Below, one piece after another: positions 3,091 through 46,145 of a DNA stretch of 47,150 bases. The position numbers were made by a program, and so were the translations under genes. This stretch comes from a virus, in IMG/VR virus record IMGVR_UViG_3300037106_000005, positions 1 to 47,150 of that record; one strand, given 5' to 3'. Position 1 is the first letter of the stretch. Every line of letters starts with the position of its first letter. Below the pieces are notes generated by a model. It made no database searches, had not been told where the DNA came from, and was given only the letters and a program-made list of their open reading frames with translations.

Positions 3091-4845
3091 TCACAATACA
3101 TAGAAGGTTGGTAACTCTTCGTCCTCAGTAGTCTGAACACTGCGAGCGGTTGTATAGTCTGCTCCGTCTGAAGGCTTGGCAATCATCACAGCCATCTGTA
3201 ATGAATCTATGACGTCAACCGTTACTCCTCGGGGGAACTGTTCGAGTTCATGAATCAAGGCGGTTTGACTACGCTCAAGGAATATAGACCCGGTTTCAAA
3301 GTAAGGGCCAAGCGTATCGGCATCTCTCTCGATCTTATCCGTCGAGGGCTTCACACCCCTCAAGGAATGGAACGCATTGTTCTCACGCATGAGCCTATTG
3401 ATCTCATCGAAGATGCTCTGTTGCTGTTGTACGGTCTCAACACAAGCTCCCAGTACTTGAAACTGTTTGACGAGTCGTATCTCCTCGTCCACCATTCCTA
3501 TACGCTGAATGTTAGACCTATCTAACTCAACCTTATCAGAATCACCGGGCTTCCTATACCCGGCCTTGAATTCATCCCTCAGTCCGAACTTACCTCTTGC
3601 ATACATCAGTACGAAGACCTGTCTGTACTGATTCATTGCTATGATAATGATGCTCGTGAACTTAGCGTTGTTAGTCGTAGCGGAAGCCGCATCAAGTCCA
3701 ATGAAGAGATTAACTTCATAGACTATGGTAGTCGCTCCGTGGTCGAAGCTAACCTGTAACCAGTTCCTATCACCCGCCCTTATGTAGGTCATATCAGCAT
3801 ATCTAATAACCTTGAAGGGCTTCTCGTCAGGAGCAGTGGTTATGTGAAAATAGTCTTGGAAGAATCCCGCTGCCTTACCACTCTTGTAAGCTTCCTGATA
3901 CTTACGAAGAATATACTCAAGATCAAGACGCTCAGGCCAGTATAGATGACAACTCGTTTGCAGTTCATTGATTCTTTCTTTGGATGGTATCTCGATTGCA
4001 GACTCCGTGATCTTACATTCACTCAAGACCTTATCGAAGTCCTCGTAGTCCATGATAGGATACTCGTGATACTTCCACGCTGGATTACTCTTGAGTTTGA
4101 TAGGAACCGTATCCTGATGAAGGATAGTACCGTTGAAGAATACTTTACCATCTATATCGTCCACTGCGTTGAACATTGCAGTGAAGAACCACTTCTCACT
4201 CTCGGCTCTTGTGTGTTCAGTCTTCACTCCGTTTTCGGAGTACATATCGTTGATGATTGCGAGAGTTGGTCTATAACTATTTCGAAGAACAGAACGTACT
4301 TGTTGGCCCACGCCTCTCGCAAGCACGTAAGCTCCAGGCTTGCCATCAAACATACACTGGTAGGCATCACGAGTCCATTCTCCATCTTGTCCCCTAACTC
4401 CTTTCGACTTTATGATTCCAAAGTAGTGTTTGATATGAGGATTGGTCGTAAGCTCTTTACGAACCTCGAAGGTGTCTTGTTCTGCGAAGTCATGGGTCTC
4501 CGAACAGTAGATGATTAGCTTCTCTAGACCAAAGCAGCAGGTATAGAGCAGGAGTATCTTAGACATTGTAGTCTTGGCTGCACCTCGGAAAGCAACCTCT
4601 GCAAGGAGACGATCGTACTTGTGTTTGTGTTCCTGTGAGTACAGACTCATGAAGTCCATATACATAGACTTGTGGAAGTCCGGTATGTCGTTCCTCACCC
4701 ATTCGGGAACAATCATCTTAGCGAAGAGAACTATACCGAGGTTGTTACGGTCTGTGTTGTCTAACCACTTGTCACGCCAGTAGTGTACGTCACAGTATCC
4801 ACCTCGTACAGCTTCATCCCTGCACTTTTTGACTCCGCATTTCAT
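3091..4845 (-). CDS. terminase large subunit with N-terminal zinc knuckle
   Basis: A 584-residue packaging motor and nuclease. The ATPase has a Walker A variant 'AFRGAAKTT' (residues 85-93, K91) and a probable Walker B 'TLAIIND' (D200), which lacks the usual second acidic residue. The C-terminal RNase H-like nuclease has 'FIGLDAASATT' (D385), 'ACVETVQQQ' (E470) and 'VIDSLQ' (D547) as likely metal ligands. Unusually, the first 21 residues carry C3, C8, C18 and H21, a small zinc knuckle resembling those in phage HNH proteins. The start overlaps the gene before it by 32 bases. No separate small subunit is recognisable; 6931-7218 or 5685-6731 could fill that role. Confidence 0.9.
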   Translation of the reverse strand: MKCGVKKCRDEAVRGGYCDVHYWRDKWLDNTDRNNLGIVLFAKMIVPEWVRNDIPDFHKSMYMDFMSLYSQEHKHKYDRLLAEVAFRGAAKTTMSKILLLYTCCFGLEKLIIYCSETHDFAEQDTFEVRKELTTNPHIKHYFGIIKSKGVRGQDGEWTRDAYQCMFDGKPGAYVLARGVGQQVRSVLRNSYRPTLAIINDMYSENGVKTEHTRAESEKWFFTAMFNAVDDIDGKVFFNGTILHQDTVPIKLKSNPAWKYHEYPIMDYEDFDKVLSECKITESAIEIPSKERINELQTSCHLYWPERLDLEYILRKYQEAYKSGKAAGFFQDYFHITTAPDEKPFKVIRYADMTYIRAGDRNWLQVSFDHGATTIVYEVNLFIGLDAASATTNNAKFTSIIIIAMNQYRQVFVLMYARGKFGLRDEFKAGYRKPGDSDKVELDRSNIQRIGMVDEEIRLVKQFQVLGACVETVQQQQSIFDEINRLMRENNAFHSLRGVKPSTDKIERDADTLGPYFETGSIFLERSQTALIHELEQFPRGVTVDVIDSLQMAVMIAKPSDGADYTTARSVQTTEDEELPTFYVL

Positions 4846-23243: not shown

Positions 23244-23899
23244 CAACACCGTCAGAGGTGGAGGGGATGCCGACAAGGGAAGAGAACATCCTACGGCGAT
23301 TGGAAGCGATGTTGTCGCTACTCAGTCCAGGAATGGAGGAAGAGGATCGGAAGTGCGGTTATGACGAGATAGAGGATCTCATTCAGGAGGTGAAGTCCGT
23401 ATTCGTCGATGCTCGTCTCGAACTCGCATCTCTCCTCGAAACCCGCAAGCGAGAGAACGAGAACGCAGAGAAGATCATCGCAGCCATTCAATCCACTCCG
23501 GGGGTGGAGAGGCTGAGAGAGGCGTTCAATGCGGGTCTGGTTTCAGAGGTGGAGTTTGAGGACGGAGAGGAACACTACGGGGCAATCGAAGAATCGAGGA
23601 AAGCCGACGTTGCGTTCGCCGCCTTTATCCGCGCTCTCGCCCGTCCCGCAGAGGGAAAGGAGAAAGGGAAAATGAAAGCTGATACGGTACGAATAGTACT
23701 TGGTATATTAACAGTTCTAATGCTAATCATTGCATTCTTCTGTAACGAAGGCTGTGGAACAGTTAAAGATCTATATGATCCCGAGACAATCTGTACCTGC
23801 ACTCATGCTAATAGGTATCATAACGCAGAGGGTATATGTGACTCTTGCGATTGCACCTCATTCAATCCCGCTGAGGAATATGGTGGGAGTATATTCTAA
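23240..23899 (+). CDS. chimeric protein: coiled-coil part fused to membrane Cys-rich part
   Basis: A 219-residue protein in two parts. Residues 1-143 are GC-rich in codons, acidic and helical with 'RLREAFNAGLVSEVEFEDGE', recalling the 'LREAFEAGF' of the Lar-like protein. From M145 ('MKADTVRIVLGILTVLMLII') the DNA becomes AT-richer, a membrane helix appears and nine cysteines follow in 75 residues ('CTCTHANRYHN', 'CDSCDC'). The second part, which has a start codon and a GGGAAA just upstream, looks like a separate membrane protein joined in frame by recombination. Confidence 0.5.
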   Translation: MTTPSEVEGMPTREENILRRLEAMLSLLSPGMEEEDRKCGYDEIEDLIQEVKSVFVDARLELASLLETRKRENENAEKIIAAIQSTPGVERLREAFNAGLVSEVEFEDGEEHYGAIEESRKADVAFAAFIRALARPAEGKEKGKMKADTVRIVLGILTVLMLIIAFFCNEGCGTVKDLYDPETICTCTHANRYHNAEGICDSCDCTSFNPAEEYGGSIF

Positions 23900-24527: not shown

Positions 24528-24956
24528 TTACCACTGGATTACCCACCAGCCAAACTTCTTCGCTGATGGTGTAGCGCGACTCCTTGCAAAGATCACCGTA
24601 TCGGTTGAAGATGTAGATGTAACCGGACTATAGGTTATCACAGTCGAATCGGTAGAACCCGGTGTAACCGAATAGGAGCTCGTACCGAAGATTGTGGTAG
24701 CTGGCCTATACCCCGGTATTACCAGCGTATCGAACTGTATCGTTGTAGCAAATACCGCAAGCCCAGACGAAGTTCCTACAGGAAGAACTCCCAGTGTAGA
24801 AGCTCCAGCTGTTGTAGTCGAAGGCCCAGTCAGAGCATTGATAAAACTCTTCCTGATGGTAGGATTGCTGACGAGATCATTTATCACTGTTCCAGTCTGG
24901 GCGCTTCCCAGATAGACAGTGAAGACCATAGTGAGAAACAACATTAAGCGTTTCAT
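24528..24956 (-). CDS. secreted fibre-tip-like protein
   Basis: A 142-residue protein with a Sec signal peptide (residues 1-19, '...YLGSAQ', cleavage before Q). The mature part is Ser/Thr-rich and beta-like, ending in 'RATPSAKKFGWWVIQW', a form of C-terminus seen in fibre domains. AAAGGAGGTAG gives a strong ribosome site. A signal peptide on a fibre-like protein is unusual, since virion proteins normally stay in the cytoplasm. It may coat the infected cell's surface. Confidence 0.6.
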   Translation of the reverse strand: MKRLMLFLTMVFTVYLGSAQTGTVINDLVSNPTIRKSFINALTGPSTTTAGASTLGVLPVGTSSGLAVFATTIQFDTLVIPGYRPATTIFGTSSYSVTPGSTDSTVITYSPVTSTSSTDTVIFARSRATPSAKKFGWWVIQW

Positions 24957-24981
24957 ATCTACCTCCTTTGTGATTAGTTGA

Positions 24982-25004
24982 CTTGGATTCCTAGGTTATC
25001 CAAG
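24982..25004 (-). promoter_or_regulatory. hairpin between genes
   Basis: CTTGGAT (24982-24988) pairs with ATCCAAG (24998-25004), with a CCTAGG palindrome in the loop. It lies in the 57-base gap after the 25014 gene and before the start at 24956, and may act as an attenuator or processing site. Confidence 0.45.
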
Positions 25005-25013
25005 GTGTAACAT

Positions 25014-25322
25014 TCACTTCCTCTTCACCGTGTCGGCTGCGGATTGTTTGGCTTTCAGATACGCCTTGATGTTTTCCAGAGCCCTGTACTGATCCTCGAT
25101 GTTCTTCTGCGCGGCTTCGATGTTCTGGAGTTCCGCCTTAACGGAAATCTTGAGCGTGTCGGGTGGAGTCTTTGTGCTGTCGGGGCGCCGGGCGAATGCA
25201 ACAGAAGCGACAAGGCCAAGAAGCATCACAATCCAAAACGCGACCCTAAGTATGTACGCCTTTCTGTTCATGCTCAGACAAAACTCAAGGACTTCCATTG
25301 TTGGCCTGTCCGATGTTCTCAT
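25014..25322 (-). CDS. membrane-anchored coiled-coil protein (inner spanin-like)
   Basis: A 102-residue protein. The ATG at 25322 overlaps the upstream stop by four bases (ATGA); an ATG at 25271 would remove 17 residues before the membrane helix. One membrane helix (about residues 26-44, 'VAFWIVMLLGLVASVAFA') is followed by a proline-rich joint and a periplasmic coiled coil ('KAELQNIEAAQKNIEDQY'). This is the layout of inner-membrane spanins, but no adjacent lipoprotein is seen. It could also anchor the secreted proteins near it. Confidence 0.5.
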   Translation of the reverse strand: MRTSDRPTMEVLEFCLSMNRKAYILRVAFWIVMLLGLVASVAFARRPDSTKTPPDTLKISVKAELQNIEAAQKNIEDQYRALENIKAYLKAKQSAADTVKRK

Positions 25323-26416
25323 GGTACGATTCCCACCGTCGTATCACCAACTACGGGAGCGGTGATATACATTGCACCCGCCGTCAATCCGGCACTTCGG
25401 GCTGCAGCCGTAGTAGCGTAGAAAGTCAGCCCCGCTACCGCCAGCACTGATGTTGGGGTTGTAGTTCCAATTCCCACGTATCCACGATGAGCCGATCCGT
25501 CACCGATAGTGACAAAAGGGGTAAACCCACCACCAGGGCTATAAATGCCGTTTATTGCACCAAATTGCATCTGATATGATGTTCCCCACGTTGCACCTGC
25601 ATATAGTTTGAGTTTCCCGCCGGTATTCTCTATCCCAAACACATTGGTAGCATCCGGAGTAAACCAGAGAGCACTACTGTTCCCCGTCAACGTCAATTTA
25701 CCGACGTTCGTCAACTCCATCAGGCTGACAAAATTCGTTGTTCCGTTAGTGGTAGTTGTTCCCCACTCGAAAAATGTATTGTTCGCCGGAGGAGGTATCT
25801 TAAATCTATACTCCGTCCGTCCAGCCGTTGTGTCCAAATTCATTCCATAACCTGACCCGCTAATGTCAAACTGACCGTATCCTCCCCTGTGGAACAAGAC
25901 GTACCGATCCCCTTGCTGTCCACCAACAAAAAATGGTTCATAGGTTAGGTTGTTTGGAGATGCATACTCTGTGTGAACAACTGCAAAATCTGTAGCATCA
26001 ACACAATTATTTGCAGGACAGCCGATCTCAACAAAGGCCATTTGACGGAAAGGTTGCCCAACTGTGCCGCTCGATACGTTCCCGTAGCCCATTGCCGCAC
26101 GTGATTGGCCCAGATGGTCGAAGAAATTAAAGGCAGCAACCCCGGTCGCACTTAGGTTCTGTATGGCAAGGACATTATTTGTATTATTTGCAGTAAGCGT
26201 TGGTTCTGCGCCGCCAAACTGTGCGGTTAAGTGAGAAAACCATACCGCTCGGATCGCCGCTGAATCGCTTCTGAGTATTGTCAACAGTATTGAGCGAATC
26301 GCAACCGAGTCAACATGAGACGGAGCCGTACCCGAGAGACTTCCCCTCAGTGTATCCACCTGTGCCATCAAGGGAGTGGCACACAAGAGAAGCAGAGCAA
26401 AGAGTATTCGTTTCAT
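25319..26416 (-). CDS. secreted tail-fibre-like protein
   Basis: A 365-residue protein with a textbook signal peptide (residues 1-18, 'LLLLCATPLMA', then Q). The mature protein looks like a phage fibre: short beta repeats, 'RGYVGIGTTTPTSVLAVAG' near residue 320 and a glycine-rich shaft. Such sequences normally bind host surfaces as trimers. With export, it would be displayed on or released from the infected cell. It is coupled to the next gene. Confidence 0.62.
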   Translation of the reverse strand: MKRILFALLLLCATPLMAQVDTLRGSLSGTAPSHVDSVAIRSILLTILRSDSAAIRAVWFSHLTAQFGGAEPTLTANNTNNVLAIQNLSATGVAAFNFFDHLGQSRAAMGYGNVSSGTVGQPFRQMAFVEIGCPANNCVDATDFAVVHTEYASPNNLTYEPFFVGGQQGDRYVLFHRGGYGQFDISGSGYGMNLDTTAGRTEYRFKIPPPANNTFFEWGTTTTNGTTNFVSLMELTNVGKLTLTGNSSALWFTPDATNVFGIENTGGKLKLYAGATWGTSYQMQFGAINGIYSPGGGFTPFVTIGDGSAHRGYVGIGTTTPTSVLAVAGLTFYATTAAARSAGLTAGAMYITAPVVGDTTVGIVP

Positions 26417-26420
26417 GGGT

Positions 26421-26861
26421 TTACCTTACGATAAGTGTGTGACCGCTTGGACTTACAATCTGATCGCCGTTGGTTAATACCAAGTACTCTGCTGGAGCCG
26501 ATGAACTCATTACCGTAGTCACATTCGACGAATAGGGATGACCACCCTTAACTACATTGATACGATAGAAGTACATCGTATTAGCAGTTAATCCAGTAAC
26601 TGATTGCGAGGTTCCAGTTACTGAGTAGTTGTTATATGCTCCAACAAACGTAGAAAAGAATATACTTGTTGATACATCAAGAGTATATGACGATCCTCCT
26701 GTCAGTAGTTTCCAGTTAGCTACAAAACTAGACGATGTTGGGAGTGTTGCAGCTATTGTTACTGGGTGAGGCTTAACTACTCCTCCATGTATCGGAGGTA
26801 TTCCATGCACTTGACTAAAGCATGGATATGCGAGCACTAGAAGAACGACTAGTCTCTTCAT
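26421..26861 (-). CDS. secreted fibronectin type III protein
   Basis: A 146-residue protein. The start is ATG 26861, separated by one base from the previous stop with AAGGT upstream; an in-frame ATG at 26882 lies inside the previous gene. A signal peptide (1-16, 'LLVLAYPCFS', then Q) precedes a fibronectin type III domain of about 85 residues ('SSSFVANWKLLTGGSSYTLD', 'GLTANTMYFYRINVV') and a short C-terminal beta piece. Likely exported and adhesive. Confidence 0.68.
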   Translation of the reverse strand: MKRLVVLLVLAYPCFSQVHGIPPIHGGVVKPHPVTIAATLPTSSSFVANWKLLTGGSSYTLDVSTSIFFSTFVGAYNNYSVTGTSQSVTGLTANTMYFYRINVVKGGHPYSSNVTTVMSSSAPAEYLVLTNGDQIVSPSGHTLIVR

Positions 26862-26862
26862 G

Positions 26863-27138
26863 TCAGTTACCTTTGTATGCAATCACTGCTCCTGATGTTA
26901 ACTGGAGAGAAGTGAAGTGTCCAAATATAGTTATACCAGCAGGGAATGTTCCCGATATAGCATCGCCTCCCCATACAGGACTAGCGGTTAGCGCGGTGAA
27001 TACTGTATCGGTAATAATCTGTACAGCAAGGTAGAACTCCGCTGGTGTTGGAGTATGTACTCCACCCGTACTGATAAAGTCTGCTCCCATCATACCACTA
27101 AGAGCGTTCATCAAATGAGTCTGATCATAGATAGGCAT
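26863..27138 (-). CDS. small fibre-associated protein, paralogue of 27864
   Basis: A 91-residue protein. Its second half ('AISGTFPAGITIFGHFTSLQ' then 'LTSGAVIAYKG') matches the second half of the 27864 protein in length and pattern ('SIYGQFNKIKLRSGSVIAQH'). The two flank the fibre gene, so they probably arose by duplication and may both cap or attach to the fibre. They look like a compact beta domain. The start is ATG 27138 with a good AGGGAGGA site. Confidence 0.55.
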   Translation of the reverse strand: MPIYDQTHLMNALSGMMGADFISTGGVHTPTPAEFYLAVQIITDTVFTALTASPVWGGDAISGTFPAGITIFGHFTSLQLTSGAVIAYKGN

Positions 27139-27147
27139 GAGTCCTCC

Positions 27148-27864
27148 CTAAGACATTATTCCATTATTCTTTAGTGCAGTAATTATATTACTTACCGCAG
27201 TGATTAGTGCATCTCTATGTATAGCTGAATCAAAGGCTCCAGCAGTTACTCCAGTTCCACCAGTAGCAGGAGGAGCAGTTGAGGCATACGCAGTCTGTGG
27301 TGACGCTCCATTACATCCAAATCCAGCAGTCAAAGTAAGAGCACCAAACGTAGGAGTTGATACACTTGATATGTCCTGTATCGTATTAAGTTGTGTTGCA
27401 GTTACCTTTAGATTAGTAGTATTATATCCAAGTCCTATCACTCCAGCAGAATAAGTAATGGGATCAGTCTTGGACATAGCAGCTCTAGCTCTTGTATCTG
27501 TATAGTAAAGATTCGTACCCTCTGGAAGATTAGTGGTAGTGAACTGAACATTGACCCACTGAGATCCATTATACTCAATCGTATCTCCATTTACAGGAGA
27601 TGGAATGAGTACATCGGATAAACTCTCGAGTGTAGTTGGTGACACACCACCGCCTCCGCTTCCACTTGGAACAGTAGTGGGAACAACAGCGGGAGCTGAT
27701 AAGTTATCAAGCTTCTTCTTATCAGCAGCAGTCATGAATCCATCCTGCGATATAGTCACAGTCTGGTGTCGTCCATCTACTCCATGTTCCTGTTGGAGTA
27801 TCTCCTCAAGAGTCTTATGTAGTTCCTCAAGAGTACTGGACTTCATAGATGAGAAGTATGGCAT
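27148..27864 (-). CDS. tail fibre protein
   Basis: A 238-residue protein. A helical N-terminus ('STLEELHKTLEEILQQEHG') is followed by 'TISQDGFMTAADKKKLDNLS', 'LESLSDV' and 'NLPEGTNLYYTDTRARAAM', modules repeated in many phage fibre and tail-spike shafts. The C-terminus is a helix rather than a beta tip. No signal peptide, unlike the genes after it, so this one is the likely virion fibre. It overlaps 27864 by one base. Confidence 0.72.
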   Translation of the reverse strand: MPYFSSMKSSTLEELHKTLEEILQQEHGVDGRHQTVTISQDGFMTAADKKKLDNLSAPAVVPTTVPSGSGGGGVSPTTLESLSDVLIPSPVNGDTIEYNGSQWVNVQFTTTNLPEGTNLYYTDTRARAAMSKTDPITYSAGVIGLGYNTTNLKVTATQLNTIQDISSVSTPTFGALTLTAGFGCNGASPQTAYASTAPPATGGTGVTAGAFDSAIHRDALITAVSNIITALKNNGIMS

Positions 27865-28145
27865 CAGTACACTCCGGCGTGTTGTGCTATCACTGATCCT
27901 GACCTCAGCTTGATCTTATTGAACTGACCATAGATTGAGAGGTTATGCAAGAATGTATCACCGACTATACTGTTGCCACTCATTCCTGCAAAGTCATTCA
28001 GTATCTCAAAGACGCAATCCTGAGTTACGGTTATCTGAACCCAGAAGTCATTACCATCACAGGTGTGCAGCTCCTGATCGTTGATATATGTCGAGCCATG
28101 TTGACCAGCAAGAGCTGCACTAAGGTCACGATTGAGTTGAGGCAT
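27864..28145 (-). CDS. small fibre-associated protein
   Basis: A 93-residue protein, paralogous to 26863-27138 in its second half. It contains 'FWVQITVTQDCVFEILNDFA' and 'LSIYGQFNKIKLRSGSVIAQ'. Directly upstream of the fibre gene and sharing one base with it, so probably coexpressed and part of the same structure. No named family. Confidence 0.55.
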   Translation of the reverse strand: MPQLNRDLSAALAGQHGSTYINDQELHTCDGNDFWVQITVTQDCVFEILNDFAGMSGNSIVGDTFLHNLSIYGQFNKIKLRSGSVIAQHAGVY

Positions 28146-28155
28146 TTTATACTCC

Positions 28156-28542
28156 CTACTGGATTGTGATTGTTACTGTGTCTCCACTACCTATTGCGTT
28201 GCTGATCTTTGAGAACACTTCGTTGAAGGCTACGTAGGAATGAATCACGTGATCTACACCCTCTTCCTTACCCACGAGAATACATCCGAGTGTATCTTCG
28301 GGATAGTTGCCAATATGAATCTCGATACCGTTATGCTCAGGAACATCTTGAAGAATGGGAAGCATCCTACCGTGTTTAGGACTATAGACTATCACAACCT
28401 TGTATTCTCCAATCGCAATAGCGTTGGGCTTATCTATTCGTACTGGAGGCTCAAGCGTAAAGCACTCGAACTTATCTCCGATTGACAACTCGCCAGGAGT
28501 TGAATACTCTGTACTGGGCTTCCTATTCAGTGTCAGCTTCAT
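28156..28542 (-). CDS. DUF5675 family protein
   Basis: A 128-residue protein with AGGAGG six bases upstream. 'TPGELSIGDKFECFTLEPPV', 'IAIGEYKVVI', 'GIEIHIGNYPEDTLGCILVG' are the marks of DUF5675, from memory. The conserved His (76) and Cys (87) with the GC dipeptide recall the catalytic H and C of YkuD L,D-transpeptidases, so a peptidoglycan role is conceivable. No other endolysin is visible in this genome, which makes it worth testing. Confidence 0.75.
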   Translation of the reverse strand: MKLTLNRKPSTEYSTPGELSIGDKFECFTLEPPVRIDKPNAIAIGEYKVVIVYSPKHGRMLPILQDVPEHNGIEIHIGNYPEDTLGCILVGKEEGVDHVIHSYVAFNEVFSKISNAIGSGDTVTITIQ

Positions 28543-28642
28543 CTTCTACCTCCTCTGTTAGGTCTTCTTCATCAAGTGATCCATCGTCTTCCTCGTCGAA
28601 GTCTTCGAGAGGATCGTCTTCTACCTTAGAAATTGATTCCAT
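28523..28642 (-). CDS. 39-residue highly acidic protein
   Basis: A frame from ATG 28642 to TAG 28523 with AAGGAGGG nine bases upstream. More than half the residues are Asp or Glu ('FDEEDDGSLDEEDLTEEVED'). It overlaps the end of the ATP-grasp gene and the start of the DUF5675 gene, bridging the two. Its own strong ribosome site argues that it is translated. A DNA mimic or a regulator of its neighbours is possible. Confidence 0.55.
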   Translation of the reverse strand: MESISKVEDDPLEDFDEEDDGSLDEEDLTEEVEDEADTE

Positions 28643-29897
28643 ACTCAGCACCCTCCTTGATAGTCTCTTGGACTTTATCAAGACAAGAGGTCTCAATCAT
28701 CAGATCATATCCCTTCACTTCAGATGCTAACTCCTTGCACTTATCAATAGCTTCTTTCATTGTATCTCCTAGACCAACGATAGATCCTACGTTACAAATC
28801 TTTCCTGTCTTCTGAGGAATGATACAGATTTCATCATCAACCTGCATAAAGTTCCTAAACTTAATCCATCGCCTCTGATCCTTAGGATATAAGATCTTCA
28901 TCCAATTCTGATCAGCCCACTGAGAATCAATACGAACTATAGCTGCGTACTTGGTACTGAACTTAGGAGAAACTATTCTTCCATTAGCTGCTTCCCATAT
29001 AACTTCTCCTAAGTTACTCACCATCTCAATATGAGCTTCAGAAGGAGGACTCCCCATTCTAATACATGGATCAGTAAGATATGGAATCCTATCTTTACCA
29101 ATCCTTACCTCTGTAGAGAAGAAGCCCCTAGATCCTTCTTCCTGAAAGATTGTGGAGAGGTGACTATTGATTAGTGTGAGGACTGCCGGAATATCCTCAT
29201 ACTTAGTCACCTCTCCTATGTACCCCAGTCCCTTGGCTTCATATCCGAACAGGGACTGATCTGGATACAAACCATCAACTGTCCATCCATCATAGCCTAT
29301 CTCAACACCTTCAAGAGTATGCTCGATGATGAACTCGTAGAAGTCTTTACTGTAACCGAGATCAATCCCTAGGCGATCAAAGAACTCACCAGACATAGTT
29401 TTCTTTATGTGATGATAAGTCTCTGTATCACCACGGTAGTAACTGATCTTCACCCAAGCATCATCAGTCTTTTCCAGTGTCTTCTTCAGGGCATCAACAC
29501 CGAAGAGTTGTTCAGTGTATGGACAGGGTAGCCCAGCCTTGTGCTGAGTCTGTCTTGATCTCCATCTATCTAATTCAAGGTATTCAGCTTTACGCATACC
29601 GAAGACTAAGCGTCCTAGACTAGCAAGATGCACTTGGAGACCAGAGGAATAAACATCTGGGAATACGAAGATGTCTATCTCTTTACTATCAACAAGTGTC
29701 CAGAAGTTCTCATCAGTCTTGATACGAATAATATCTTCAATACCATCTCCGATATAGTCCTTAGTAGACTTAACAAAGGCGTCTTCATTAGGGACATAGT
29801 AGAAGACCCTACCAAAGTCTCTAGCTAATCGAATAGCCAATTCACTAAAGAGTCCTTGGTCTACTACCATACAACTACGCTTAGATAAGTCTTCCAT
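28626..29897 (-). CDS. ATP-grasp enzyme, PurD-like
   Basis: A 423-residue protein with the ATP-grasp plan. The N-terminal 110 residues resemble a Rossmann-like pre-domain. 'AWVKISYYRGDTET' (about 147-160, K150) would contact ATP; 'EGVEIGYDGW' (196-205) and 'FFSTEVRIGKDRIPYLTDPC' (259-278) give the acidic metal ligands; residues 365-400 ('GSIVGLGDTMKEAIDKCKEL') match the C-domain of phosphoribosylamine-glycine ligase. ATP-grasp enzymes join a carboxylate to an amine via acylphosphate. A ligase within a virion operon, with no purine-synthesis genes, is unexpected; the substrate is unknown. AGGA eight bases before ATG. Confidence 0.75.
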   Translation of the reverse strand: MEDLSKRSCMVVDQGLFSELAIRLARDFGRVFYYVPNEDAFVKSTKDYIGDGIEDIIRIKTDENFWTLVDSKEIDIFVFPDVYSSGLQVHLASLGRLVFGMRKAEYLELDRWRSRQTQHKAGLPCPYTEQLFGVDALKKTLEKTDDAWVKISYYRGDTETYHHIKKTMSGEFFDRLGIDLGYSKDFYEFIIEHTLEGVEIGYDGWTVDGLYPDQSLFGYEAKGLGYIGEVTKYEDIPAVLTLINSHLSTIFQEEGSRGFFSTEVRIGKDRIPYLTDPCIRMGSPPSEAHIEMVSNLGEVIWEAANGRIVSPKFSTKYAAIVRIDSQWADQNWMKILYPKDQRRWIKFRNFMQVDDEICIIPQKTGKICNVGSIVGLGDTMKEAIDKCKELASEVKGYDLMIETSCLDKVQETIKEGAEYGINF

Positions 29898-38943: not shown

Positions 38944-39747
38944 TTAGATTAAGTCCTCGTCCTGCTCGTTGTTAGTATCGTTACTATCCAACATACTGAA
39001 GGCAATAGCTGGCATGACTACTATAGGAATAGTATCATCCTTCAGGGCCATAACTTCCTCATGTATCTTCTCGAGTTCAATCTTCCACTCACCCTTTATT
39101 CTCTCGCGTTCACCAGCAAGGATATTGAGAACCTGCGTGGGTTTCTCCATAGCGACAGCCTTCACATATCTACGTTCCCAAGCCTTGAGTTCAAGACCCT
39201 GAACTAACTTGTCGTGATACTTTTGATCAAACATAGGCGTGGCATTAAGATCAACGAGATCAGTGATCTTGGGAAGTTCATAGTACCAGAGCTTAATCGT
39301 CAGACTTCCTGCGATTAAGTTAGTGAATATCACCCACAGAGCATCTTGGAAGTAGTTGATCGTGTAGAATAATGGATGACTATCGTGCATTATATCCGAG
39401 TCATCTATATCAGCAAATCCTCCATCGTAGCAACCATTCTTGATAGAATCAAGATCAGTCTCGTAGGCTTTCCTAAATGAGATTCCGTCAGAACTCCACT
39501 CTACACGATACGTTCCCAAGAAGTTATCACCGAATAGTCTGCCATTCTCGTCGTTACCGTAGAGCTTATAAGACTTTACATTCGCGGTAGTAGTAAACGA
39601 GATAACATTCCGAAGCAATTTAGTCTTCTCGCAGAAGTCCCGATAAGTACGCCTCAACATTCGGAGGTACTCGTCCTGACTTATCTCCTTGTAGAACTCG
39701 TCGCCTACATTATACGCGGCACGAGAGATTATATCTTCACAAGTCAT
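38944..39747 (-). CDS. head-tail adaptor-like neck protein
   Basis: A 267-residue protein. The N-terminus ('CEDIISRAAYNVGDEFYKEI' then 'EYLRMLRRTYRDFCEKTKLL') and later 'KYHDKLVQGLELKAWERRYV' are helical and resemble podoviral adaptor proteins that sit between portal and nozzle. The middle is beta-rich. The start has GGTGGAG and overlaps the previous stop (ATGA). Assigned by pattern and position. Confidence 0.6.
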   Translation of the reverse strand: MTCEDIISRAAYNVGDEFYKEISQDEYLRMLRRTYRDFCEKTKLLRNVISFTTTANVKSYKLYGNDENGRLFGDNFLGTYRVEWSSDGISFRKAYETDLDSIKNGCYDGGFADIDDSDIMHDSHPLFYTINYFQDALWVIFTNLIAGSLTIKLWYYELPKITDLVDLNATPMFDQKYHDKLVQGLELKAWERRYVKAVAMEKPTQVLNILAGERERIKGEWKIELEKIHEEVMALKDDTIPIVVMPAIAFSMLDSNDTNNEQDEDLI

Positions 39748-40781
39748 TTCTCCACCGATGCTGAAGGTTTAGTAAAGCGATACGTAGCCTGAATATATGT
39801 AGTATCAAGCATCCCGCCTACAGGCTGAGGTCTCGTAAAATAAAACTGTGGCGTAGTAATAGTTGTATCTGCTGATCCTTTTCTGATAGCCATAGTCTGA
39901 AGAATAATCAAATCAAATCCAGATGTTGTGAAAGCTGTCGAGTCATACTGATCTTTTATCGAAGGATAAAGAGGTGGAGGTTCAGGGCCAATCGCTGTCA
40001 GGTAATCCTGCACTGACCATCCAAGTCTGCCATCATCCCACTGGATCTTCCACCAGTTATTAGACTGTGGGCCTCCAACAATCGTTCCCTTATTTCCACT
40101 CTTCTCCATTCCTATTGGATAGTTACCAACCGTTGACGGAACGCTACGAATGTTCAAACCAACAGCAACGGTAAGCGATACCATTACTCTCCCACCAATT
40201 ACAAAACCAAGTGGCGCAGGAGGTGGAGGCGTTGCAACTAAAACTGTAACTGATTTCTGTACCATCCCATAGTTATTCGTTGCATTCAGCGTGAATGTCT
40301 GACTGCTTTTGATAAGGTACTTGAGTGAATCATTCATCGCGAGAAACCCAAAATCAAGTCCCTCGATACCTACATATGTTGCATACTGTGTAGTCCAATA
40401 AAAAGTTACTACACCGCCACCAGTTGAGAAACTAGTAGGACTAGCACTGAAGTTTACTATCGGAACCTGCGTTGCAGGAGGAATAGATACCGTGGCTCGC
40501 ATATACTTCTCGGCACACCACGCTGCAAGTCCATTCTGCCATACCACCCTCCAGAATATATAGCTTGTGTGTAAGCTAATATCTGGCGAAGATCCTTCGA
40601 CTATTCTTCCAAGAGTACCATCATTGAAGCAACTAGCTATTGTAGAATCGCTAATTGTAGATGGTATTGATCTCACATTAATGCAACCACTGGTACTCGA
40701 GATTGCAACTGAGTCTCCGATGTGGAAGCCCTGACTGAATGTAATCTGAGTAAACAAAAGTAACATCGATAAGTATTTCAT
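39744..40781 (-). CDS. secreted protein with two SH3-like domains
   Basis: A 345-residue protein with a signal peptide (1-16, 'LLLFTQITFS', then Q). Bacterial SH3-like domains lie at about residues 20-92 ('CINVRSIPSTI' ... 'WRVVWQNGLAAWCAEKY') and 196-266 ('LNIRSVPSTVG' ... 'WWKIQWDDGRLGWSVQDY'), with an Ig-like beta domain between. SH3b domains often bind peptidoglycan. No catalytic domain is seen. It follows the lysis-like cassette and may work in the periplasm during lysis. GGGAGG before ATG. Confidence 0.7.
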   Translation of the reverse strand: MKYLSMLLLFTQITFSQGFHIGDSVAISSTSGCINVRSIPSTISDSTIASCFNDGTLGRIVEGSSPDISLHTSYIFWRVVWQNGLAAWCAEKYMRATVSIPPATQVPIVNFSASPTSFSTGGGVVTFYWTTQYATYVGIEGLDFGFLAMNDSLKYLIKSSQTFTLNATNNYGMVQKSVTVLVATPPPPAPLGFVIGGRVMVSLTVAVGLNIRSVPSTVGNYPIGMEKSGNKGTIVGGPQSNNWWKIQWDDGRLGWSVQDYLTAIGPEPPPLYPSIKDQYDSTAFTTSGFDLIILQTMAIRKGSADTTITTPQFYFTRPQPVGGMLDTTYIQATYRFTKPSASVEK

Positions 40782-41280: not shown

Positions 41281-41814
41281 TCACTTGGTCACTGACTGAA
41301 GCTGTTTCGAGAGAACATTCAATGAGTCCATCCAGTACTTCTGTTGCGCCACAAATGAAACCGAGTCAGCGTAACGCTTTGCTGGATCAGATGATTGCGC
41401 CTTCATCCCGCCATAGGGGAGAACCGCACAAAGATTTTGCTGAACCATACAGATCTGATTAGCGATAGTGCATGCACTACTAGCAATCGCCTGACCTGTC
41501 ATTCCACATCCTCCGACCCCGACAAGTACCGGAAGAAGGAGAATGACGACGAGTATTTTTGCAACGGGGAAGGAAGCTTTCATCGTCGTCTTTTCAGGAT
41601 CAGCCTGCGCTTGAATCTGAGCAACCGACTTGGTTGTACCGTTAGCATTCTTGCCCTGAAGGTACAGACCCAAGGCAATCGCAACATAGATCAGATATGC
41701 CTTCCAGTTAAATGATGCTCCCGCTGGAAGTGAATCCACATACTGTGTATATGTTCCAATGAGGAACACAACCACAGCAGCAATCATTGAAAGTATATCT
41801 TTAAGATTTGTCAC
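41281..41814 (-). CDS. holin-like membrane protein with an embedded lipoprotein
   Basis: A 177-residue protein. Residues 8-22 and 38-53 are membrane helices around a short loop, like small holins. A polar stretch (55-75) leads to M78, from which 'KASFPVAKILVVILLLPVLV' plus 'GVGGC' reads as a lipoprotein signal with the lipobox Cys at 103. The final 70 residues are helical with two Cys. An internal start at 41583 would give an outer spanin-like lipoprotein, although its ribosome site is weak. Otherwise it is a three-helix membrane protein. Confidence 0.55.
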   Translation of the reverse strand: MTNLKDILSMIAAVVVFLIGTYTQYVDSLPAGASFNWKAYLIYVAIALGLYLQGKNANGTTKSVAQIQAQADPEKTTMKASFPVAKILVVILLLPVLVGVGGCGMTGQAIASSACTIANQICMVQQNLCAVLPYGGMKAQSSDPAKRYADSVSFVAQQKYWMDSLNVLSKQLQSVTK

Positions 41815-44792: not shown

Positions 44793-46145
44793 TTATGAAG
44801 TCAGACCGTACAGATGGAAGTGACTATCCCTGAAGGTTCTCTTCATTCCCACGACTCCACGAATCTGATGCTTGGTCTTCGCTTCGTCGTTGGCCTGCAG
44901 ACCCTTTCCATCTTTGCCCTTGTCGATGTGAATATCCATTCCCTTCATGTACATATAGCGAAGGTACATGGTATCGGCAAAGTAGCACTCGTTGTCCTTG
45001 CCCATCATAGACATTTCGTAATCCGGCATGAAGTGAACCACCAGACCACCTGTCTGTGTGTAGGACTGGACTTCGAGTCCGAGATCGTTGCTGAGCTTCT
45101 CGTTGTAGCGGAGACGATCAGCAGCTGCATTGGCGAGCTGAGTGAGGAATCCGTAACCGCAGACTCCGAGCTTCTCCATCGAACCCTGGAGGCCGACACC
45201 CTTCAGAACCGTGTTGAGATTCGTCTGGGTCAGGGGCTTGCCAAGATTCAAGCGGTTGTCTGTGTTGTTCGGAACCCACTCGTCGAATCCTCCAGTGTAC
45301 CACACATACTTGCCGCCTGCACCCAGCTTGCGGTTCATACGACCAGAGAGGAATCCACGCTCGAGACGACGACTGAAGTCACGACGAGCGTTACGAGCTT
45401 TTCGCTGCCACTCATTCTCACCGAAGAGATCAGTGTTCTGAGCAACATCGTCCATCTCGTATGCAACCTTCATATCCTGAACGTAGTTGTTGACCACGAC
45501 AGGGTTCTGCGAGAACGACTGCGGACTTCCACTGCCTTCCTCAGCAGCCTCACCGATATGCCACACATAGGTTCCCGATGTAAGGTTCGGAGGAGCAGTC
45601 GGAATGGTTGTCGCTCCGACTCCACGCCTCACAGTAACCGCTGTGTTGGTTCCACCAGGAGTACCGATTGATAAGATCTCAACCACCTCTTCCGTTGCGT
45701 ATACTTCAGACCTTGCACCGTAAGTGATGATCGCTGTCGTGTGAAGATTGTCAGCGGAGTACGCGATACTCGTCCACGTTGACGCCGTTCCCTGTGTCGC
45801 ACCACCACCACCGCCCTGAACCTTCAGAAGCTGACCTGCCTGAAGCTGTGCGGCTTCAGCGTTAACGAAGGTCATAACGTCTTCGAGCGAACCTGACGAT
45901 GAGTCTGTATCAGTTACCAGCGTGAACTGAAACGCTCGGTATCCATCTTCAAAGTGTCTGGGCTCAGGATCAGTTGCTTCCCACTTCGGACACTTCGTGA
46001 CGAGGAAGTGAGCGAGGACAGCATAACCCCTCTCACGCCAGATAAAGAACTTGGACTTGTCTTTATCATACTTACGAGTTTCTGTGAACAAATCTACAAC
46101 ACCGTAACCTCCGGTGACTGCAGTGCCAAGACTTTCCGCCGCCAT
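44793..46145 (-). CDS. major capsid protein (DUF5309/SU10-like candidate)
   Basis: A 450-residue protein. It has an HK97-style organisation: variable N-terminus, long beta insertion (about 100-200) and a basic helical segment ('WQRKARNARRDFSRRLERGF', about 240-260), then 'VCGYGFLTQLANAAADRLRY', 'GLVVHFMPDYEMSMMGKDNE' and 'TKHQIRGVVGMKRTFRDSHF', a pattern I recall from DUF5309 capsids. It is downstream of scaffold. The ribosome site (AAGGGA) is inside the homing endonuclease gene. GC-richer, regular codons suggest high expression. Confidence 0.8.
   Translation of the reverse strand: MAAESLGTAVTGGYGVVDLFTETRKYDKDKSKFFIWRERGYAVLAHFLVTKCPKWEATDPEPRHFEDGYRAFQFTLVTDTDSSSGSLEDVMTFVNAEAAQLQAGQLLKVQGGGGGATQGTASTWTSIAYSADNLHTTAIITYGARSEVYATEEVVEILSIGTPGGTNTAVTVRRGVGATTIPTAPPNLTSGTYVWHIGEAAEEGSGSPQSFSQNPVVVNNYVQDMKVAYEMDDVAQNTDLFGENEWQRKARNARRDFSRRLERGFLSGRMNRKLGAGGKYVWYTGGFDEWVPNNTDNRLNLGKPLTQTNLNTVLKGVGLQGSMEKLGVCGYGFLTQLANAAADRLRYNEKLSNDLGLEVQSYTQTGGLVVHFMPDYEMSMMGKDNECYFADTMYLRYMYMKGMDIHIDKGKDGKGLQANDEAKTKHQIRGVVGMKRTFRDSHFHLYGLTS

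Follow-up and report, generated by a model that had tools for sequence, protein, structure and literature searches.

Four genes in the late structural block of a podovirus-like genome encode proteins that begin with predicted signal peptides, and the most economical explanation, by analogy with cases supported by MS/MS, is that they are virion fibres that would reach the particle through Sec. The genome is the IMG/VR virus record IMGVR_UViG_3300037106_000005, and the window, i.e., the whole stretch of DNA analyzed here, comprises 47,150 bases. Export of the four proteins (genes at 26421, 25319, 24528, and 39744) by signals of the Sec/signal peptidase I type is well supported by their sequences, because the signal anatomy, the glutamine at the junction (Q-rule), and conservation in a relative genome, G001, all point to it. 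The further proposal, that these genes encode distal parts of fibres, spikes, or adhesins which would be exported by Sec, trimmed, and joined to virions outside the cytoplasm, draws on analogy and is given a little better than an even chance. It is supported by the position in the late block, the signal anatomy, Gln at +1, the retention of the terminal signal gene in G001, and the MS/MS-annotated analogues in Cellulophaga phages.

Genes of the late structural block

The late structural genes of the window all lie on the minus strand and include a P22-type portal (841-2814), TerL (3091-4845), an SU10-type adaptor (38944-39747), and an SU10-type major capsid protein (44793-46145). The late block spans the ends of the record, and its last gene is that at 24528. 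The signal-bearing genes lie on the strand of the portal, major capsid protein, adaptor, and fibre genes and come after them in a series with overlapping genes, which places them within the late structural block. The packing is tight, with the stop codon of 25319 overlapping the ATG of 25014, and GGAGG sites are found upstream of 24528 and 39744.

The final part of the block begins with a DUF5675 protein (28156-28542, minus strand), which is conserved in the corresponding block of G001. Its closest relatives are found in Manatee Spring and crAss-like phages, where the crAss-like ones are annotated as L,D-transpeptidase/carboxypeptidase. It is followed on the same strand by a 93-aa protein (27864-28145), a 238-aa fibre (27148-27864), and a 91-aa protein (26863-27138), none of which has a signal peptide, and then by the genes at 26421, 25319, 25014, and 24528. 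The 93-aa and 91-aa proteins are paralogues (34% identity over 80 aa) that flank the fibre, and they are candidate adaptor proteins. The fibre, whose N-terminus is homologous to that of a G001 fibre (L010:433-972), is a candidate cytoplasmic proximal fibre or adaptor. A preliminary description of this DNA had placed four consecutive genes after the virion fibre; all four were confirmed and are read from the minus strand, but the first gene to follow the fibre is the signal-less 26863-27138.

Two other observations were made in the window. A 423-aa ATP-grasp/PurD-like protein with a weak purD match is encoded at 28626-29897 within the late operon, and no relative of it was found in IMG/VR. The single ORF at 41281-41814 consists of an N-terminal part with two TM segments and an internal start-like MKASFPVAKILVVILLLPVLVGVGGC lipobox, and it may encode a lysis protein together with an in-frame lipoprotein.

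Signal-bearing proteins and their cleavage junctions

The gene at 26421-26861 (minus strand, ATG at 26861) encodes a 146-aa protein with a predicted 16-aa signal peptide, MKRLVVLLVLAYPCFS, followed by QVHG (junction CFS/QVHG). The 365-aa fibre-like protein of 25319-26416 (minus strand) has an 18-aa signal, MKRILFALLLLCATPLMA, followed by QVDT (LMA/QVDT), and its C-terminus carries weak matches to fibre-type motifs (GIGTTTP...LAVAG and GLTAGAMYIT). The 142-aa protein of 24528-24956 (minus strand) has a 19-aa signal, MKRLMLFLTMVFTVYLGSA, followed by QTGT (GSA/QTGT) and a beta-type C-terminal domain. The fourth protein (345 aa, 39744-40781, minus strand) lies apart from these and has a 16-aa signal, MKYLSMLLLFTQITFS, followed by QGFH (TFS/QGFH), as the preliminary description had recognized; this signal was read by eye. 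The remaining gene of the cluster (25014-25322, minus strand) encodes a 102-aa protein whose N-terminus is a single hydrophobic helix, with a tail behind it that is charged and coil-like, in agreement with its earlier designation as a membrane-anchored coiled coil. For this reason it resembles an inner-membrane spanin.

A weak fn3 match is present in 26421 (18.6 bits against the Pfam cut-off of 25), and no Pfam family was found for 25319 or 24528. The 25319 protein also gave no PDB match and no significant PHROG match (best E 0.019), and 24528 gave no match in PHROGs. An SH3 assignment for 39744 is only suggested by an Ig/PKD-like stretch between two SH3-like ones, all read by eye, and by an NCBIfam p60-type match with E 0.0067. 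The AlphaFold models of 25319 and 24528 (pLDDT 34-35) were too poor for fold searches.

All four signals start with MK and at least one basic or aromatic residue, continue with a hydrophobic core of 8-12 residues, and end in a junction of the A/S/G-x-A/S type directly before Gln. In the Bacteroidetes, cleavage by signal peptidase I exposes Gln in most substrates, which is known as the Bacteroidetes Q-rule (PMC5837995), and the exposed Gln is then cyclised to pyroglutamate (PMC5837995; PMC10653852). Use of the Q-rule outside the Bacteroidetes is exemplified by Ignavibacterium, at 77% (PMC5837995).

Signals were detected by a scripted rule-based scan of the n-, h-, and c-regions, which required A/S/G at −1 and a permitted residue at −3. 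Among the 76 ORFs of the window, the only Q-rule matches were 26421, 25319, and 24528, that is, the three cluster genes to which signal peptides had been ascribed earlier; 39744 was missed because its h-region is weaker. Gln occupies +1 in all seven signals considered (four in the window and three in G001). When the residues after the h-region were permuted, a valid cleavage site followed directly by Gln arose at 0.05-0.11 per protein, so that chance hydrophobic N-termini were rejected. The product for 7/7 is 1.3e-8; this figure assumes independent proteins, whereas 24528 and its homologue in G001 share descent. No outer-membrane lipobox was found in the signal proteins of the window, where +1 is Gln and not Cys, and no C-terminal T9SS sorting domain (Por_secre_tail/TIGR04183) was found with Pfam and NCBIfam.

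A relative with a corresponding block

A near-full-length relative, G001 (IMGVR_UViG_3300044712_000493, 47,418 bp), was found through TerL. Its identities to the window are 60% for TerL, 54% for the portal, and 55% for the major capsid protein, and the two genomes have a common order of the late block. The search for the same cluster in relatives, which the preliminary description had proposed, thus yielded a corresponding block with three Q-rule proteins. After the fibre that resembles 27148, this block encodes proteins of 532, 219, and 1092 aa, TM proteins, the DUF5675 protein, and a 123-aa homologue of 24528 (L010:8067-8438). The 532-aa protein has a signal ending VFA/QQ and a sequence of the tail-fibre type. 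The 219-aa protein has a hydrophobic N-terminus, in which no cleavage site stands out, and a GH43_C2 lectin-type domain (34.6 bits against a cut-off of 22.7). The 1092-aa protein has a signal ending SLG/QT and a beta-helix-like sequence with a DUF1565/beta-helix hint; MTAC is a possible alternative lipobox in it.

The 24528 homologues are only 25-30% identical, and the conserved positions are AQTG at the junction (SAQTG in the window, EAQTG in G001), the next I-x-D-L, and FxNALT. The larger signal proteins have entirely different bodies in the window and in G001. Retention of the signal together with such replacement of the larger bodies is, as read from the sequences, the pattern of host-range parts.

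Searches for further relatives with TerL and with the signal-peptide protein both reached only G001, plus an 8-kb fragment (L007) that does not contain the block. Two other contigs (L006 and L008) were rejected, as their TerL-pattern matches arose by chance. Megablast and tblastn searches of INPHARED with the window region and the signal proteins gave no match, and IMG/VR scans with the 365-aa, ATP-grasp-like, and 1323-aa proteins gave no relatives. Neither a host nor a prophage was found in GTDB genomes. The Q-rule and the DUF5675 neighbours point to a host of the Bacteroidota type, other users of the Q-rule being possible.

Q-rule signals on virion proteins of Cellulophaga phages

Ten proteins with Q-rule signals are noted in GenBank as "structural protein" with experimental MS/MS proteomics in Cellulophaga phages, namely gp091-094 of phi10:1, gp085-087 of phi18:3, and gp101-103 of phi19:1. 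Proteins of the same kind are identified by similarity in phi46:3 (gp079-082), and in phi19:1 gp104 the N-terminus resembles a signal, but Lys takes the place of Gln at the junction. These annotations run against the earlier premise that virion proteins do not need export.

All ten annotated proteins sit in the fibre blocks of their genomes. The Q-rule proteins that lie outside the fibre block, phi18:3 gp095 and the phi10:1 ORF at 23531-23845, are only "hypothetical", and the virion lists therefore do not simply sample whatever proteins these phages export. This argues against simple periplasmic carry-over as the source of the virion annotations. The records are nevertheless weakened in that membrane vesicles or bound exoproteins can come along with virions when these are prepared.

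According to their sequences, the Cellulophaga signal proteins behave as modular tailspikes in which the signal and anchor can be swapped. The first 118-132 residues, including the signal, are 82-95% identical across the different bodies of Nekkels 54, phi10:1 gp093, and phi18:3 gp086. Conversely, the body of phi46:3 gp081 (L024 34513-36747) is 92% identical to that of phi19:1 gp102 and stands on a different signal and N-terminus, and the MS/MS virion protein gp097 of the crAss-like phi14:2 joins the same body, at 44% identity, to an N-terminus that lacks a signal. One working part would therefore reach virions by two routes, of which one includes an export signal. At its C-terminal end, phi19:1 gp101 matches the tailspikes of CBA120 and of phages of Klebsiella and Pseudomonas. 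No internal start codon that would skip the signal was evident by eye in the best Cellulophaga cases. As the window proteins have no sequence homology to these spikes, the assignment of the former to the virion is by analogy.

The scan was also applied to phages of known Bacteroidota hosts and to controls. T7, P22, two Manatee Spring phages, an unrelated IMG/VR contig, B124-14, P12002L, P12024L, and P2559S gave no Q-rule signal, and neither did the late-block genes of crAss001, phi14:2, and phi38:1. Since the late blocks of the Bacteroidota phages among these (crAss001, phi14:2, phi38:1, B124-14, P12002L, P12024L, and P2559S) carry no Q-rule signal, export is not generally needed. Elsewhere, a small Q-rule protein, gp001 (L020 9-266), stands at the start of the phi14:2 genome and adjoins the OmpA-domain gp002, which is also signal-bearing. 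Flavobacterium phage FCL-2 encodes a 147-aa Q-rule protein (L028 45363-45806) with a GIATTTP motif like that in the C-terminus of 25319, far from the tail genes.

Alternative explanations

The preliminary description had taken the exported proteins to act outside the virion. The export itself stands on the signal anatomy, the Q-rule, and the conservation in G001; the step from export to non-virion action does not follow. Proteins of this sort would bind or cut surface glycans from the periplasm, the cell surface, or the medium, with roles in superinfection block, receptor masking on debris, degradation of capsule or EPS at release, aggregation, or as decoys. The Q-rule signals themselves, the lectin (GH43_C2) and beta-helix type proteins of G001, and the proximity of the signal genes to lysis-type membrane genes would all fit such roles. 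In P. gingivalis phages, Q-rule genes whose function is unknown have been interpreted as possible envelope modifiers (PMC10367356), and lambda Lom, an outer-membrane protein with a signal, is encoded between spike and fibre genes (PMC12309495). However, fibre-block proteins of like design are MS/MS-annotated as virion proteins in three cultured phages, and it is because of these annotations that a non-virion action was demoted to a rival. Moreover, apart from the possible lipobox of the 1092-aa protein of G001, neither a lipobox nor a T9SS domain was found for an exit before lysis. A non-virion action is judged less likely than not and is kept as a live rival.

It is improbable that the proteins are lysis or envelope-remodelling factors, in which periplasmic SH3, fn3, or glycan-binding folds would act with the spanin-like and DUF5675 proteins. 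The signal genes are indeed mixed with single-TM coil proteins and DUF5675 in both the window and G001, and 39744 looks SH3-like. However, the sequences are beta-rich and fibre-like, profile searches gave no hydrolase match for the signal proteins of the window, and the larger proteins have wholly different bodies in the two genomes, as is the case for host-range parts.

Phage ejection proteins, too, can have hydrophobic N-termini, and the cleavage is a prediction. Even so, that the N-terminal helices are uncleaved membrane anchors, trimerisation segments, or membrane-insertion segments of ordinary virion proteins is the least probable reading, because the short h-regions of 8-12 residues, the A/S/G-x-A/S/G junctions, and Gln in 7/7 are as in Q-rule substrates of signal peptidase I (PMC5837995).

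Proposed route of the fibres

If the proteins are virion fibres, the signal-bearing parts would be made late, together with the virion genes, in a podovirus of a Bacteroidota-type host that follows the Q-rule. The host SecYEG would export them, signal peptidase I would cut just before Gln, and a host glutaminyl cyclase would probably convert the new N-terminal Gln to pyroglutamate. The parts would then fold and stay in the periplasm; with Sec export alone and no T9SS sorting domain, they should wait there until lysis. Their attachment to DNA-filled particles would take place outside the cytoplasm, at lysis or later, perhaps by docking onto the signal-less fibre and candidate adaptor proteins 27148, 26863, and 27864. 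There is precedent in vitro, where P22 tailspikes and T4 fibres join pre-formed particles from outside. The export may aid folding, shield the cytoplasm from lytic or glycan-binding domains, or enable unattached fibres to mask receptors.

A broader proposal is put forward tentatively, at somewhat less than even chances: several unrelated lineages of Bacteroidota tailed phages may assemble in two compartments, with the export signal being part of an exchangeable fibre-anchor module. Heads and proximal tails would be built in the cytoplasm, and the distal receptor-binding fibres would be exported by Sec, trimmed, pyroglutamylated, and attached at or after lysis.

Comparison with known systems and significance

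The closest likeness is to Cellulophaga phages phi10:1 and phi19:1 (Assiduviridae) and phi18:3 and phi46:3 (Pachyviridae), in which, as in the window, consecutive late Q-rule genes with beta-rich modular bodies follow the tail genes. Their blocks differ from the window in having no significant homology to it and belonging to other capsid and tail lineages, and virion presence is recorded there whereas the window is known from genes alone. The tailspikes P22 gp9, CBA120, and phi14:2 gp097 share the proposed role and the modular anchor-body design, but they have no signal peptide and assemble in the cytoplasm. Lambda Lom is likewise a signal-bearing gene that adjoins tail-fibre genes; however, it is a membrane protein of the beta-barrel type that is expressed in lysogeny, while the window proteins look soluble and fibre-like and belong to a late operon. 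The P. gingivalis phages (Nixviridae, PMC10367356) also encode proteins whose signal cleavage would expose Gln. Unlike the window genome, they are temperate, and their five Q-rule genes of unknown function are not described as fibres or virion proteins (PMC10367356). Two rumen Bacteroides phages have been reported with one or two signal peptides (PMC5723332). A literature search, perhaps not including the original Cellulophaga genome paper, found no report of signal peptides or Sec routing for virion fibres of tailed phages, and priority is not asserted.

The textbook view is that tailed phages assemble entirely within the cytoplasm. If the spikes of Bacteroidota phages are routed through Sec, the completion of the virion would depend on the host signal peptidase and glutaminyl cyclase, and unattached spikes would cover the cell ahead of lysis, with superinfection block as a by-product. 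The annotation of fibres in gut and marine phages would then have missed a large class that is marked by a simple sequence tag, and the Cellulophaga phages make this reading directly testable now.
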